Shown: positions 20,552 through 25,107 of the stretch, piece after piece
Position numbering within the stretch: the first letter of the stretch is position 1
Layout: the number at the start of each line of letters is the position of its first letter
From: an uncultured Candidatus Nitrosopumilus sp.
Lineage (GTDB): Archaea; Thermoproteota; Nitrososphaeria; Nitrososphaerales; Nitrosopumilaceae
Assembly (NCBI GenBank): GCA_905479565.1
Contig: CAJQMY010000064.1
Span: 1-34,807 of the forward strand
DNA: 34,807 nucleotides
Direction of reading: 5' to 3'
Made by a program: the position numbers and the translations under genes
Notes under the pieces: model-generated
Told to the model about the DNA's origin: nothing
What the model saw: only the letters and a program-made list of their open reading frames with translations
Databases searched by the model: none

Positions 20552-20593
20552 TTACATTTCAAAAGAAGGATCCCATGTTAATTTATTGAACAT
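20552..20593 (-). CDS. Possible 13-aa ORF ending DPSFEM
   Basis: ATG 20591-20593 to TAA 20552-20554 reads MFNKLTWDPSFEM. By itself this would be dismissed, but the DPSFE end recurs at 24721 and 25173. It overlaps the last codons of the 71-aa gene upstream. The DNA around the stop also resembles the copy at 25173. It may be the end of a decayed small gene rather than a translated peptide. Confidence 0.3.
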   Translation of the reverse strand: MFNKLTWDPSFEM

Positions 20594-20798
20594 GTGCAGT
20601 CTCTCCAATCAATTCTCTATAGTATTTTAAAATATACTTGTATTGTTGTTCAAAGTTTTTAGAGTCTTTTGCTAATAGTTGTATTTCCTCTACCAGTCTT
20701 TCCATGATTGCAGTTTGTGACATTGAATTTTGGATGTTTGACTTTGATTCTGCAAATCCTCCCTTGTGTGGTTTGGCTGGTTCTAAGAACTGTATCAT
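20583..20798 (-). CDS. Small unknown protein, third ORF of micro-cluster
   Basis: A 71-aa protein with a disordered, Lys/Ser-rich start (FLEPAKPHKGGFAESKS) and a long helix (MERLVEEIQLLAKDSKNFEQ, YKYILKYYRELIG). Its ATG overlaps the preceding stop (ATGA), which favours translational coupling. An overlapping minus frame at 20659-20877 is basic and unstructured and is the less likely coding frame. No family is recognised. Confidence 0.5.
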   Translation of the reverse strand: MIQFLEPAKPHKGGFAESKSNIQNSMSQTAIMERLVEEIQLLAKDSKNFEQQYKYILKYYRELIGETAHVQ

Positions 20799-20974
20799 GC
20801 AAATCCCTCGCTTTGTAGACTTTTGGCAAGTAACGAATTACTTTTGTTCCTTGTGATGTTTCTTTTGAATTGAGCAAATTTGCTCATTAGTCTATAGTAC
20901 TCTAAAACAATTTCATCTCTGATGGATGATTTTTGTTCAACGCTTTTTGTTAATTCTAGAATCCGTATTGACAA
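20795..20974 (-). CDS. Small unknown protein, second ORF of micro-cluster
   Basis: A 59-aa frame beginning at TTG 20972-20974, immediately after the TAA of the 56-aa ORF and in the same frame. The sequence is helical and basic (IRILELTKSVEQKSSIRDEI, EYYRLMSKFAQFKRN). It ends in ATGA overlapping the 71-aa ORF. Because only one stop codon separates it from the 56-aa ORF, the two may be a single gene with a nonsense codon. Confidence 0.45.
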   Translation of the reverse strand: MSIRILELTKSVEQKSSIRDEIVLEYYRLMSKFAQFKRNITRNKSNSLLAKSLQSEGFA

Positions 20975-21145
20975 TTAAATCTCATCCTCCGTAAACAAAA
21001 CCCAAGACAATCCCATTAGATCACTTGCAGTTAGTTGTGGTGTGCTGATTTGATTCAAAGATTTTGGCACTTCTTCTACAGGTACCTTTGATGCCTGGAT
21101 TGTTGATGGAGAGTGTTCCCATGTGTTTATGAATTGTTGTTTCAT
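20975..21145 (-). CDS. Small unknown protein, first ORF of micro-cluster
   Basis: A 56-aa protein starting MKQQFINTWEHS and ending ASDLMGLSWVLFTEDEI. The start is supported by the promoter element at 21167-21202, exactly 21 nt upstream, the same spacing as for the cupredoxin gene, whose product also begins MKQ. No family is recognised; it has no signal peptide. Confidence 0.55.
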   Translation of the reverse strand: MKQQFINTWEHSPSTIQASKVPVEEVPKSLNQISTPQLTASDLMGLSWVLFTEDEI

Positions 21146-21166
21146 GCAGTAATTACGTTTGAGTTA

Positions 21167-21202
21167 TATATAATAAGAGATACCTCATTGCGGGGTACCT
21201 AA
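21167..21202 (-). promoter_or_regulatory. Shared 36-bp promoter element, copy 1
   Basis: On the minus strand the element reads TTAGGTACC-CCGCAATGA-GGTATC followed by a TATTATATA TATA box. It is 34/36 identical to copy 2 at 24541-24576. GGTACC and GGTATC are both direct and near-inverted repeats, spaced 9 nt apart, and abut the TATA box. The TATA centre is 26 nt before the ATG at 21145, giving a leaderless transcript. The palindromic TATATATAA could also serve the divergent gene at 21204. Confidence 0.75.
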
Positions 21203-21203
21203 G

Positions 21204-22055
21204 TTGAACCAAGAAACAACATATGGAAATCTGCAAGCATACAAGATGTACATCAGACCTACTGCAAACAAGACGTATGGAAATGCATTTTTAAAAAACA
21301 AAGACATGACAATACATCAACAGACTGTCAGAAACATGTTGGGAATTATGATGAAAAATAAACCCATGACAATTTGGGATATGGCTAAAGTGAAATTTGC
21401 AAATGACACTTCAAAGTTGCGTTACAGAGAAAAAAAATATCGGAGATTGCTTGTGGGTAGGGAAGACAGAGGAAAGCATTCGGCAGGAATATTGGAATTA
21501 GGTTTAGTCATCAAAGATGGAACGAGTCACAAAAAGGTGATTGCAGACAAGTACAGGTTATCATTGCATGGAATACTTTACTGTATCAACGCATTACAAC
21601 TAACTGAAAAAGAATTTGAGACAATAGTGGAAAAATATCACAAAGTTTTACCCAAGGTATTTGGCAAATGGGATTATCTCAAATCAAAGATAGGAAAAGA
21701 TGTTTACACAATAAAATTACTTTCAAAAGGACTGATAGCTGACAATCCCCAAATAATTACAAACTCAAAAACTCCTTTCTATGAGTTAATGTCGTATCTG
21801 ACAATAAAATACCATAGAAATTATGAAAGCATTTCCGAAGAGGAACTGGCAAACCAGATTTCTATTTGGTTTTACATCAATTTGTTGTATCAGCCATATT
21901 CAAAAAAAGAAAAGACCTATGAGGGATTAGAGCGCCTTGATGAAGTCTTTGAAGATGATCCAGAGTTACGAAAGTGGTTTAATGGTTTTTTCAAAGAGGC
22001 AAAAGCATACTATGTTAACAGAAATAGCATGATGAAAGTCAAACTAAAGTTGTAA
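21204..22055 (+). CDS. Unknown protein, possible winged-helix-like N-terminus
   Basis: A 283-aa protein starting at TTG 21204, 27 nt from the shared TATA region. Residues 1-40 are Tyr/Asn-rich. Residues ~40-110 (QTVRNMLGIMMKNKPMTIWD, KLRYREKKYRRLL, LELGLVI) could be an HTH with a basic wing. The C-terminal half is helical with many Tyr and Lys. No catalytic motif, signal or membrane segment is visible. It converges with the response regulator, 5 nt apart. I do not recognise the family. Confidence 0.7.
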   Translation: MNQETTYGNLQAYKMYIRPTANKTYGNAFLKNKDMTIHQQTVRNMLGIMMKNKPMTIWDMAKVKFANDTSKLRYREKKYRRLLVGREDRGKHSAGILELGLVIKDGTSHKKVIADKYRLSLHGILYCINALQLTEKEFETIVEKYHKVLPKVFGKWDYLKSKIGKDVYTIKLLSKGLIADNPQIITNSKTPFYELMSYLTIKYHRNYESISEEELANQISIWFYINLLYQPYSKKEKTYEGLERLDEVFEDDPELRKWFNGFFKEAKAYYVNRNSMMKVKLKL

Positions 22056-22060
22056 TGATA

Positions 22061-22420
22061 TTACAACGAGTCTACTAGTTTGCTGAGTTCTTCTAGTTCA
22101 AATGGTTTTATCAACAGTCCTTTCAATCCCATCTTCTTTGCATATTTGAACTGCTTGTCATCTATTGCATAGGCTGATGTAAAGACCACGTGTGCCTTTG
22201 GATGTTTTTTGATTATGCGCGTAAACGCATCGTATCCGTTAAGAACAGGCATTTTTATGTCCATCAGAGTCAAGGAAGGCTTGACTTCTTCATATTTTGT
22301 GACTGCTTCTTCCCCATTTTTCGCAGTAATCACGTTATAGTCTTCGTATCCTAACATGTATTCTGTTGATTCTAATAATTGAAAATCATCATCCACTAAC
22401 AGAATTGTAGTTTCTGACAT
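22061..22420 (-). CDS. Stand-alone response regulator receiver (REC) protein
   Basis: A 119-aa CheY-like receiver with the acidic pocket D10-D12 (LLVDDD), phospho-acceptor D54 in LMDIKMP, T/S switch S82 and K105 in LIKPFE. No output domain is present, so it must signal through a partner protein or act as a phosphate relay or sink. It is the last gene of the cupredoxin / kinase operon, 32 nt after the kinase. Confidence 0.93.
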   Translation of the reverse strand: MSETTILLVDDDFQLLESTEYMLGYEDYNVITAKNGEEAVTKYEEVKPSLTLMDIKMPVLNGYDAFTRIIKKHPKAHVVFTSAYAIDDKQFKYAKKMGLKGLLIKPFELEELSKLVDSL

Positions 22421-22452
22421 TGATCTTGTGTTACAAAATGCCTTATTGAATT

Positions 22453-24063
22453 TTATTGCAAATTCTTGGATATCTTGATTGAGAAAATGACAGGATTGAG
22501 CGTAACTGAAATGTCTCCTTTGTGTTGATTTATGATATTTTTACAACTTGAAAGTCCCAGTCCAGTTCCTTTCAATCTGGTAGTAAACAAAGGTTCAAAG
22601 AGTTTTGGTAACACATTGTCTGAAATTGCAGGACCTGAATTTTCAATATCTACTGTCACATGTGATTTCTTTTCATTTATTCTGATTCTTACATGTCCTT
22701 GCTTTTCATCTATTGCTTGAATTGCATTTAAGATTACGTTGACAAAAACTATGAGAATTTTTTCTTGGTCATATGAAAACTTGATATCATTTTCTGGCAA
22801 TCCCACATGTACATTTCCTGGAACATCGATTGTTTCTACTGCATCTTTGATAGTCTCCAAAAGAGATGTCTTTCTCAAATGTAGTGGAGTGGTTCTGACA
22901 TAGTTTAGAACCTCTTCTATCTGATGTGAAATTCTCTTGGTAGATATTTTCAGTCTTTTTAGTTCCCTGGAAATCTTTTCATTTTGATTGTTGTTTTCTT
23001 TATCAATAATTATGCTGGAATTTCTAATTGCACCCAAGGGATTTCTTATGTCATGCGCAATGTTTGATGACAAGTGACCAATCATGATTAGTTTATCAAT
23101 CTTGATCTTTTTTCTCTGTTTTAATGAAAAACCAATTATGAAGAATCCTGTAATTAGTAATATCGCTACTGTCTGTACTTGATCAGTAAGTGTCATGTTT
23201 CCAATCATTTCGTGAAGTACTGCAGTAGGTGTAATTACAAACAGATAGTACTCTATTTCATCATTTATTGTAATTGGAGCACCTGTATCAATTCTTTCTC
23301 CAAAATTATTTGTATAAACTGATGTAAAAAACTGGTTTTTCTCTAAAACTTCTTCGTAATGTTTTGCTTCATTTTTTTCCATTCCAATATAATCAATTAC
23401 TTTATTTCCAAAGAGGTTCTCTCCTACCAATACAGGATCTACCAAAATGTCATAATTTTTGTCAATTAGAAACAAGAATTGCTCGTCTTCAGTCTCAATG
23501 TTTCCGTGAATTTTGACCAAGTCTTCTAGATAAAATACTGTTAATGCCATACCGACAAAGCCTTCTGAGTTGGAATAAGGCTGACTAAAAATTACCAATG
23601 CTTTGGAATTTTTAAAAATATGATTTATCTCATTTTTTGTGTCAGAAAAATCAATGTCGTTAAATGACTCTTTGACGTATAAATTAATTGGAATGGACTC
23701 ATCTCCTAGTCCGTAATATGCCTTAAAGTCTTTGTCGATTAGAATTATACTCATCGGAACTATTTTGTTTAATTCGTCAAATACTGCGATAATGTTTTTC
23801 TCTTCGGTGTCTGAAACTATTCCGTCTATAGTAGCTGACGCTAGTAGAAAGTCTACGTTTGATTCAACTAAATTAAAAGTAAACTGAATACTTGATGATA
23901 TCTCTTTTGCCTTGAATTCATTTTCATTTATAGTTGAATCTTTTGCTATTTCAGTAATGTTCTTCTCCTCTTCTTCATGAACGATTATGGTAGTTGCTAT
24001 CATTGGAATGATAATCAATACTGGGACAATTAACCAAAAGTTTTCTTTAAACGAGAACATCAT
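22453..24063 (-). CDS. Membrane histidine kinase with extracytoplasmic Cache-type sensor
   Basis: A 536-aa sensor kinase. TM1 spans residues ~9-28, an extracytoplasmic region of ~260 residues resembles a double Cache domain (FLFLIDKNYDILVDP), and TM2 spans ~296-314. The HisKA H-box is NIAHDIRNPLGAI with H337. The ATPase domain has N-box NVILNAIQA (N446), G1 DIENSG (472-477), F-box LFEPLFTT and G2 KGTGLGLS (498-505). There is no HAMP or PAS domain. Co-transcription with a cupredoxin suggests sensing of a copper- or redox-related or small organic ligand outside the membrane, but the ligand is not deducible. Confidence 0.93.
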   Translation of the reverse strand: MMFSFKENFWLIVPVLIIIPMIATTIIVHEEEEKNITEIAKDSTINENEFKAKEISSSIQFTFNLVESNVDFLLASATIDGIVSDTEEKNIIAVFDELNKIVPMSIILIDKDFKAYYGLGDESIPINLYVKESFNDIDFSDTKNEINHIFKNSKALVIFSQPYSNSEGFVGMALTVFYLEDLVKIHGNIETEDEQFLFLIDKNYDILVDPVLVGENLFGNKVIDYIGMEKNEAKHYEEVLEKNQFFTSVYTNNFGERIDTGAPITINDEIEYYLFVITPTAVLHEMIGNMTLTDQVQTVAILLITGFFIIGFSLKQRKKIKIDKLIMIGHLSSNIAHDIRNPLGAIRNSSIIIDKENNNQNEKISRELKRLKISTKRISHQIEEVLNYVRTTPLHLRKTSLLETIKDAVETIDVPGNVHVGLPENDIKFSYDQEKILIVFVNVILNAIQAIDEKQGHVRIRINEKKSHVTVDIENSGPAISDNVLPKLFEPLFTTRLKGTGLGLSSCKNIINQHKGDISVTLNPVIFSIKISKNLQ

Positions 24064-24081
24064 AACAAGTTAATTTTCTAT

Positions 24082-24519
24082 TCATGAGTTTATCAATATT
24101 ACATCTACCATCCATGGATGAGTGTCACAATAATAGGTATAATATCCGCTTTCTTCAAAAGTCATTGAAAACTCTTCTTCTGGGAGAATCATTCCACTCT
24201 CAAATATCCCGTCTCTTCCATCATCTGAATTTCCACTCAAAATAACATGTGGTGCTGAATCGTTGTTTTTCCATGTTACAGTTGTATGTGTTGGAATGAT
24301 CAATCCTTCCTTGGATAGACATGCAGAATCTCCGCAAGTTTCTTTGCTTTCAATAGTAACTGTGACATGATTGTCCGCCATGGCACTGGAAGTCATGACA
24401 ATTAGGGAAAGAGAAAAAATAATTCCAAGGAACAGATAGGACGTAGAGGTATTTCGACAAGATATCTTTGGTCGGGTAAGACTCTTTTGAAATTTTGATT
24501 CCTTGGAATTTTGTTTCAT
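24082..24519 (-). CDS. Membrane-anchored cupredoxin (plastocyanin-like)
   Basis: A 145-aa protein with a cytoplasmic basic start, one hydrophobic segment (28-46, ending SSAMA) and a blue-copper domain. Type 1 ligands are visible: H91 (APHVILSG), C131, H134 and M137 in YYCDTHPWM. A second Cys pair, C62 and C67 in TCGDSAC, may form a disulfide. Thaumarchaea use many such proteins for extracytoplasmic electron transfer. The unusually long N-terminus is supported by the promoter element exactly 21 nt upstream. It is the first gene of the operon, 18 nt before the kinase. Confidence 0.92.
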   Translation of the reverse strand: MKQNSKESKFQKSLTRPKISCRNTSTSYLFLGIIFSLSLIVMTSSAMADNHVTVTIESKETCGDSACLSKEGLIIPTHTTVTWKNNDSAPHVILSGNSDDGRDGIFESGMILPEEEFSMTFEESGYYTYYCDTHPWMVDVILINS

Positions 24520-24540
24520 GCAAATCTACTGATTTTGTAA

Positions 24541-24576
24541 TATATAATAGGAGATACCTTATTGCGGGGTACCTAA
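24541..24576 (-). promoter_or_regulatory. Shared 36-bp promoter element, copy 2
   Basis: Differs from copy 1 at two of 36 positions, with the same 21-nt gap to the minus-strand ATG (24519). It carries the same GGTACC / GGTATC pair next to a TATA box centred 26 nt before the start. No plus-strand gene follows here, which shows that the element serves the minus-strand genes. Confidence 0.75.
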
Positions 24577-24881: not shown

Positions 24882-24968
24882 CATGGATTCCAAGGTCAAG
24901 ATTCAGATGTTGCAGTAGCTTGGGCATTAAGATTACGAAATTTGGTTACAATGAAAAACTATGACTAA
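24882..24968 (+). pseudogene. Possible gene remnant on plus strand
   Basis: A plus-strand frame without a start codon reads GFQGQDSDVAVAWALRLRNL and VTMKNYD before TAA 24966-24968. The composition is protein-like, but there is no support beyond that, and it overlaps the end of the zinc-finger gene on the other strand. Confidence 0.2.
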
Positions 24969-25107
24969 AATCAGCATGATTAAAATCAGATGATGGATTC
25001 CGTTCAATTTTTTGTTTGGGTGGATGAGCCTTTTTTACATGTCTCTCAAGCCTTACGTTGCTAGAAAAAACCATGTCGCAGTTTGAACATGAAATAGAGT
25101 TTGACAT
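24946..25107 (-). CDS. C2H2 zinc-finger small protein
   Basis: ATG 25105-25107 to TAA 24946-24948 encodes 53 residues with a canonical C2H2 finger: C7-X2-C10-X12-H23-X4-H28 (CSNCDMVFSSNVRLERHVKK, then AH). Conserved finger hydrophobics F14 and L20 are present. A basic then Ser/His-rich tail follows. Single-finger proteins of this size are common in thaumarchaea and are presumed nucleic-acid or protein binders. A TATA-like stretch lies in the AT-rich 25120-25140 segment. Confidence 0.7.
   Translation of the reverse strand: MSNSISCSNCDMVFSSNVRLERHVKKAHPPKQKIERNPSSDFNHADFSHSFSL

Follow-up and report, generated by a model that had tools for sequence, protein, structure and literature searches.

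On the evidence of the sequence, the twin 36-bp elements in the window (the whole stretch of 34,807 nucleotides that was analysed) are a real regulatory element, and most likely both of them bind one local regulator, which would join a kinase, a receiver and their neighbour genes in a self-controlled unit. We put at roughly two in three the probability that the elements are the operator-promoters of one signalling cassette, in which a dimer of a 283-aa protein would bind the dyad, repress its own gene and control the divergent operon, with the kinase and the receiver signalling to it. At the level of sequence this model is built on the element itself, its conservation and scarcity, the gene order and a start-codon motif; DNA binding, autorepression, the sign of target control and the phosphorelay step are what we infer. 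The features concerned are collected in table 1.

Table 1. Features of the locus, with positions in the window.
Feature	Position	Strand	Evidence
Element 1: operator and TATA of the tiny-protein operon, overlapping the promoter of the divergent 283-aa gene as well	21167..21202	-	34/36 to element 2; ortholog in 17 relatives
Operator dyad of element 1, GGTACC-N9-GGTATC, diverged form of the relatives' GGCATACCG-N5-CGGTATC	21179..21199	-	
Palindromic TATA box TTATATATAA, probably bidirectional	21164..21173	.	near-invariant in 17 orthologs; conserved ACTCA flanks the far side
Element 2: operator and TATA of the cupredoxin-kinase-receiver operon	24541..24576	-	
Operator dyad of element 2, GGTACC-N9-GGTATC	24553..24573	-	
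283-aa protein, candidate regulator, TTG start assumed	21204..22055	+	37 aligned members; 35/95 same-genus genomes; 64/68 beside receiver and kinase
tiny1, 56 aa, MKQQF...DLMGLSWVLFTEDEI, target gene	20975..21145	-	orthologs 40-55% identical, divergent from the 283-aa gene in relatives
tiny2, 59 aa, TTG start immediately following the tiny1 stop	20795..20974	-	ORF; weak matches near tiny1 paralogs
tiny3, 71 aa, KGGF motif, resembles RGGFSSS of the relatives' third ORF	20583..20798	-	ORF
Cupredoxin, 145 aa, N-terminal hydrophobic segment	24082..24519	-	PF00127 E 2.6e-5
Membrane histidine kinase, dCache-like sensor, 536 aa	22453..24063	-	HATPase_c 1.9e-18; HisKA 3.6e-10; dCache_1 7e-4, below its cut-off
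Stand-alone receiver, 119 aa, 5 nt from the 283-aa gene and convergent with it	22061..22420	-	PF00072 3.6e-22

The first-pass annotation had described two elements that are identical at 34 of 36 positions, have a minus-strand ATG exactly 21 nt away (21145 and 24519) and each hold a GGTACC-(9 nt)-GGTATC pair, and pairwise comparison bore out all of this, as well as the MKQ with which both first gene products start. A TATA box is likewise present in each, but the centre that had been placed 26 nt from the ATG is found at ~23.5 nt in the palindromic box of copy 1, so that a fair range is 24-27 nt. When up to three mismatches were allowed, the 36-mer matched twice in the window against 0.00 expected from 100 shuffles of the window, and pattern searches of the 1.42-Mb genome returned just the two element sites for its 23-bp core (≤3 mismatches; control 0). 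Outside the 36-mer the identity of the two copies falls to 7/30 in the upstream flank and to 10/21 in the spacer to the ATG, and therefore the 36-mer itself is the part that has been kept; beyond it, TTAG and TGCATGAAACAA are common to both copies. In copy 2 the operator and the TATA box are retained, and the symmetry of the TATA box and the ACTCA, which make up the half serving the reverse direction, are lost, as expected where there is no divergent gene. A scan of viral contigs with the 36-mer gave no match.

The genes downstream of the elements are those that had been proposed, namely a cupredoxin, a dCache-like histidine kinase and a REC-only receiver on one side and three small ORFs (tiny1, tiny2 and tiny3) without a Pfam match on the other. 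The host is a low-GC thaumarchaeote (31% GC) of the ammonia-oxidising type, and the named relatives of the cupredoxin belong to Nitrosopumilaceae and Nitrosotalea; the genus of the host is presumably Nitrosopumilus-like. The kinase, with its HisKA and HATPase_c domains, adjoins the REC receiver here as in 64 of 68 related cassettes, which identifies the pair as a two-component system. The receiver holds Response_reg only, with no fused DNA-binding output domain of the OmpR, NarL, LtrR or FilR1 type. The kinase was considered as the DNA-binding regulator and rejected, being membrane-bound and without a DNA-binding domain. Thus, of the earlier proposal that both elements are under shared control by a regulator perhaps related to the kinase, the shared operator is upheld by conservation and scarcity, and the kinase gives way, as the likely regulator, to the divergent 283-aa protein. 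The gene of this protein, which begins 1 nt beyond element 1, had been overlooked.

In same-genus relatives the best matches of tiny1 and of the kinase fall in the same set of genomes, ~1.3-1.5 kb apart, and the fetched loci contain a conserved block made up of the kinase, the receiver, the convergent 283-aa gene and the divergent tiny1 operon. Identity to the orthologs is 55-60% for the 283-aa protein of the window and ~40% for its kinase. Between the 283-aa gene and tiny1, GGCATACCG-N5-CGGTATCTCTTGTTATATATAACTCA is present with few changes in 17 of 17 orthologous loci, always at the same place and distance, with near-invariant dyad arms and TATA box and with a dyad centre and a spacer that vary. 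The GGTAYC hexamers form an inverted repeat, which in most relatives is a perfect TACCG-N5-CGGTA, and a dimeric regulator is therefore expected. The dyad of the relatives, GGCATACCGTAATACGGTATC, is two bases shorter than that of the window; the window species carries a diverged form of their element and carries it twice. In loci L057-L069 the tiny operon runs on downstream of tiny1 into a secreted protein of ~160 aa (FAETSQTTTTKLDDE...), which is absent from the window.

When 60 same-genus genomes were searched by pattern, the relatives' element (0-1 mismatch) was found once per genome and at the cassette locus only, and matches with three mismatches away from that locus stayed at the control level. 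A fixed-spacing search for GGTACC-type pairs in the relatives gave scattered matches near the control level. The kinase-receiver operon of the relatives has no copy of the site, which speaks against the favoured model. The motif is thus not spread over many unrelated positions, with two sites in its own genome and one strong match in each relative genome; a conserved dyad at the promoters of linked genes that is rare elsewhere is what a specific operator looks like. Conservation in relatives, together with genome-wide scarcity, makes shared control through a dedicated operator well supported, and a mini-regulon of the two elements is supported as well. With no further site in the genome, that regulon would be the cassette itself, i.e. 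the 283-aa gene, the tiny operon and, in this species, also the cupredoxin, kinase and receiver genes.

Element 1 is situated between two divergent transcription units, and the architecture of this promoter is compact. In the relatives the ATG of the 283-aa gene lies within the right operator arm (CGGT-ATG-CC), ~26 nt from the TATA centre, so that the mRNA should be leaderless; both this gene and tiny1 appear to be leaderless in the relatives. The two ATGs of the orthologs are 49 nt apart on opposite strands, with the palindromic TTATATATAA between them, and this one box is probably used in both directions, since the distance matches that of the P. furiosus starts 49 bp apart. In the window the relatives' ATG has been replaced (GGTACCTAAG), and the most probable start of the 283-aa gene is TTG 21204, no other usual start codon being present from the upstream stop at 21174 to the conserved N-terminus. 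Given an ATG ~26 nt from the TATA box, the left arm is presumably untranscribed, and element 2 lies upstream of its TATA box, so that the element should act as DNA and not as RNA. An RNA hairpin was rejected, as each arm is either at a leaderless start or upstream of one.

Members of the 283-aa family were detected in 35 of 95 same-genus genomes. Of 201 genomes sampled from the order, 30 have a match, and with the exception of a single weak partial match these belong to the same taxonomic family. A receiver gene lies within 350 nt downstream in 64 of 68 members (convergent in 57), and a kinase is a neighbour in 64 of the 68. The start codon is embedded in the motif [CT]GG[TC]ATG in 56 of 68 family genes, and among the other ORFs of these loci in 9 of 492. 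The left arm was detected with at most one mismatch in 30 of 50 family genes, versus ~4% of shuffles, a count that is descriptive and not a p-value because related loci are not independent. The spacing classes of the operator (N7, N11 and N6) track the clades of the protein; the N7 clade has the window protein as its sister (100/96), on a long branch and with an operator that has diverged likewise. Several members outside these groups retain the half-site at the start codon without a clear left arm, and covariation between the two arms is partial. The divergent partners vary (tiny1, small secreted proteins, a 49-aa ribbon-helix-helix-like protein) and are often 49-63 nt away. In the N6 clade (L154, L155, L161, L163, L164, L247 and L248) the partner resembles ribbon-helix-helix repressors, with a length of 48-50 aa and a distance of 53-63 nt.

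No match of the 283-aa protein to any Pfam, NCBIfam or PDB family was found. Membership of HTH_20 (PF12840, arCOG03067) was rejected, as none of the 37 members matched PF12840 even at E 10 and hhalign to the HTH_20 profile returned a probability of 0.2%. HTH_60 gave a weak match in one distant homolog and none in any genome searched. In residues 37-131 the conserved residues (TTWEMAK, LGLVVKDG, YRLSLHGI) follow an order that we take to be that of winged helices, a resemblance of pattern only, with no profile match. Single-sequence AlphaFold models of the whole protein and of residues 31-135 were both of low confidence. The alignment of the family found no match in viral contigs.

We strongly infer that the regulator is the adjoining 283-aa protein, and its autoregulation is the simplest reading, since the site is private to the cassette, is present in the 283-aa promoter of nearly all paralogs and changes together with the 283-aa gene. 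An extracellular cue would be sensed by the dCache-like domain of the kinase (a weak match), leading to phosphorylation of the receiver, which, having no DNA-binding domain of its own, could hand the signal on through direct contact with the 283-aa protein. A dimer of the latter would then occupy the inverted repeat. At site 1 it would switch the divergent, leaderless tiny operon from a position beside its BRE/TATA; across that TATA box it would cover both the start codon and the transcription start of the 283-aa gene and so bring about autorepression. The second site, in this genome, may draw the cupredoxin, the kinase and the receiver into the same loop. As for the sign of target control, activation is slightly favoured, considering that the site is upstream of the TATA box and does not overlap it.

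Three other explanations of the dyad have to be weighed. It could be bound by a transcription factor encoded elsewhere (e.g. a general or ArsR/MarR-type factor), the 283-aa protein being the signalling partner of the receiver without binding DNA. The lack of a detectable DNA-binding domain in the family fits this view, as does the prevalence of protein-protein contact as the mode of action of archaeal receivers (PMC5847659). We nevertheless regard it as unlikely, because the site is private to the cassette and present once per genome, accompanies the 283-aa gene right into its start codon in paralogs 41-55% identical, and belongs to classes that track the 283-aa clades. Abutting the TATA box at fixed spacing to the ATG, the element might instead be no operator but an extended core promoter (a special BRE together with the TATA box) that one of several TFB paralogs recognises; this is improbable, as a 21-bp inverted repeat exceeds a BRE, one or two copies per genome are not typical of a basal-factor site, and one arm, that at the start codon of the 283-aa gene, is on the downstream side of the TATA box. 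Least weight of all is given to a recent functionless duplication, a by-product of recombination: the TTAG and TGCATGAAACAA shared beyond the 36-mer would suit it, but the spacer between TATA and ATG has diverged far more than the 36-mer, and 17 genomes have kept the orthologous element.

The route by which archaeal two-component systems act on transcription is an open question, most receivers being without a DNA-binding domain. Among thaumarchaeal receivers ~75% consist of REC only, mostly without a conserved neighbourhood, and HTH_20 proteins (arCOG03067) are the only neighbours of REC-only receivers that are mentioned (Galperin et al. 2018, PMC5847659). The cassette resembles these stand-alone systems in its membrane histidine kinase and REC-only receiver in a thaumarchaeon, with an output expected by protein-protein contact, and differs from them in that the constant neighbour is a different, unassigned 283-aa family with its own operator. 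With FilI/FilR of Methanosaeta and LtrK/LtrR of Methanococcoides it shares archaeal two-component control of transcription; however, FilR1 and LtrR are single proteins that combine REC with the DNA-binding domain (PMC5847659), whereas here REC and the putative DNA-binding function would reside in separate proteins. If the cassette recurs in the way proposed below, the 283-aa family would be a missing transcriptional output for part of the many thaumarchaeal REC-only receivers. A candidate output protein, a candidate 21-bp operator and a compact promoter design are what this locus provides. No description of the triad of kinase, receiver and 283-aa protein was found in the open-access literature searched.

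In bacterial LysR-type systems the gene of an autoregulated regulator is divergent from its target and shares an operator with it. The same logic would operate here with an unrelated protein family and archaeal basal machinery. The single-TATA bidirectional promoters of P. furiosus, which give two transcripts in vitro with starts 49 bp apart (PMC6640164), have one symmetric TATA box and a spacing equal to that between the two ATGs of the orthologs. The reverse transcript there was taken as noise, whereas here both directions would yield leaderless mRNAs of conserved genes, with the operator on one side. The chances are about even that this is a recurrent cassette of the Nitrosopumilaceae type, made up of a membrane kinase, a stand-alone receiver and, as a separate protein, a member of a new DNA-binding family of 280-290 aa. 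From one TATA box this last protein would drive its own gene as well as a divergent target that varies, and one operator arm would be embedded in its own leaderless start codon.

Some further observations concern the surroundings of these genes. The same genome holds a second kinase-receiver cassette (L153, G000:C45:20000-26983), in which matches to kinase and receiver remain and several stop codons interrupt the 283-aa paralog. Very distant and larger relatives of the 283-aa protein (338-582 aa) are encoded at L231:898-2298 (+), L232:629-1642 (-) and L233:1153-2901 (-), one of them outside the taxonomic family; they have the motifs YxLSxxGI and LPLIFGKW in common, and a wider, unassigned superfamily around the 283-aa protein is likely. 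Upstream of the kinase operon of one relative, L059:9443-10043 is a near-perfect trinucleotide repeat of ~600 bp that reads as poly-Ile or poly-Ser. Cupredoxin genes are located near a few other cassettes (L063, L070, L143 and L145) and may be common in these genomes. In the window, a 53-aa ORF at 24946-25107 (-) shows a C2H2 zinc-finger pattern (CSNCDMVFSSNVRLERHVKKAH), and its homolog in L047 is found alongside a related cupredoxin.
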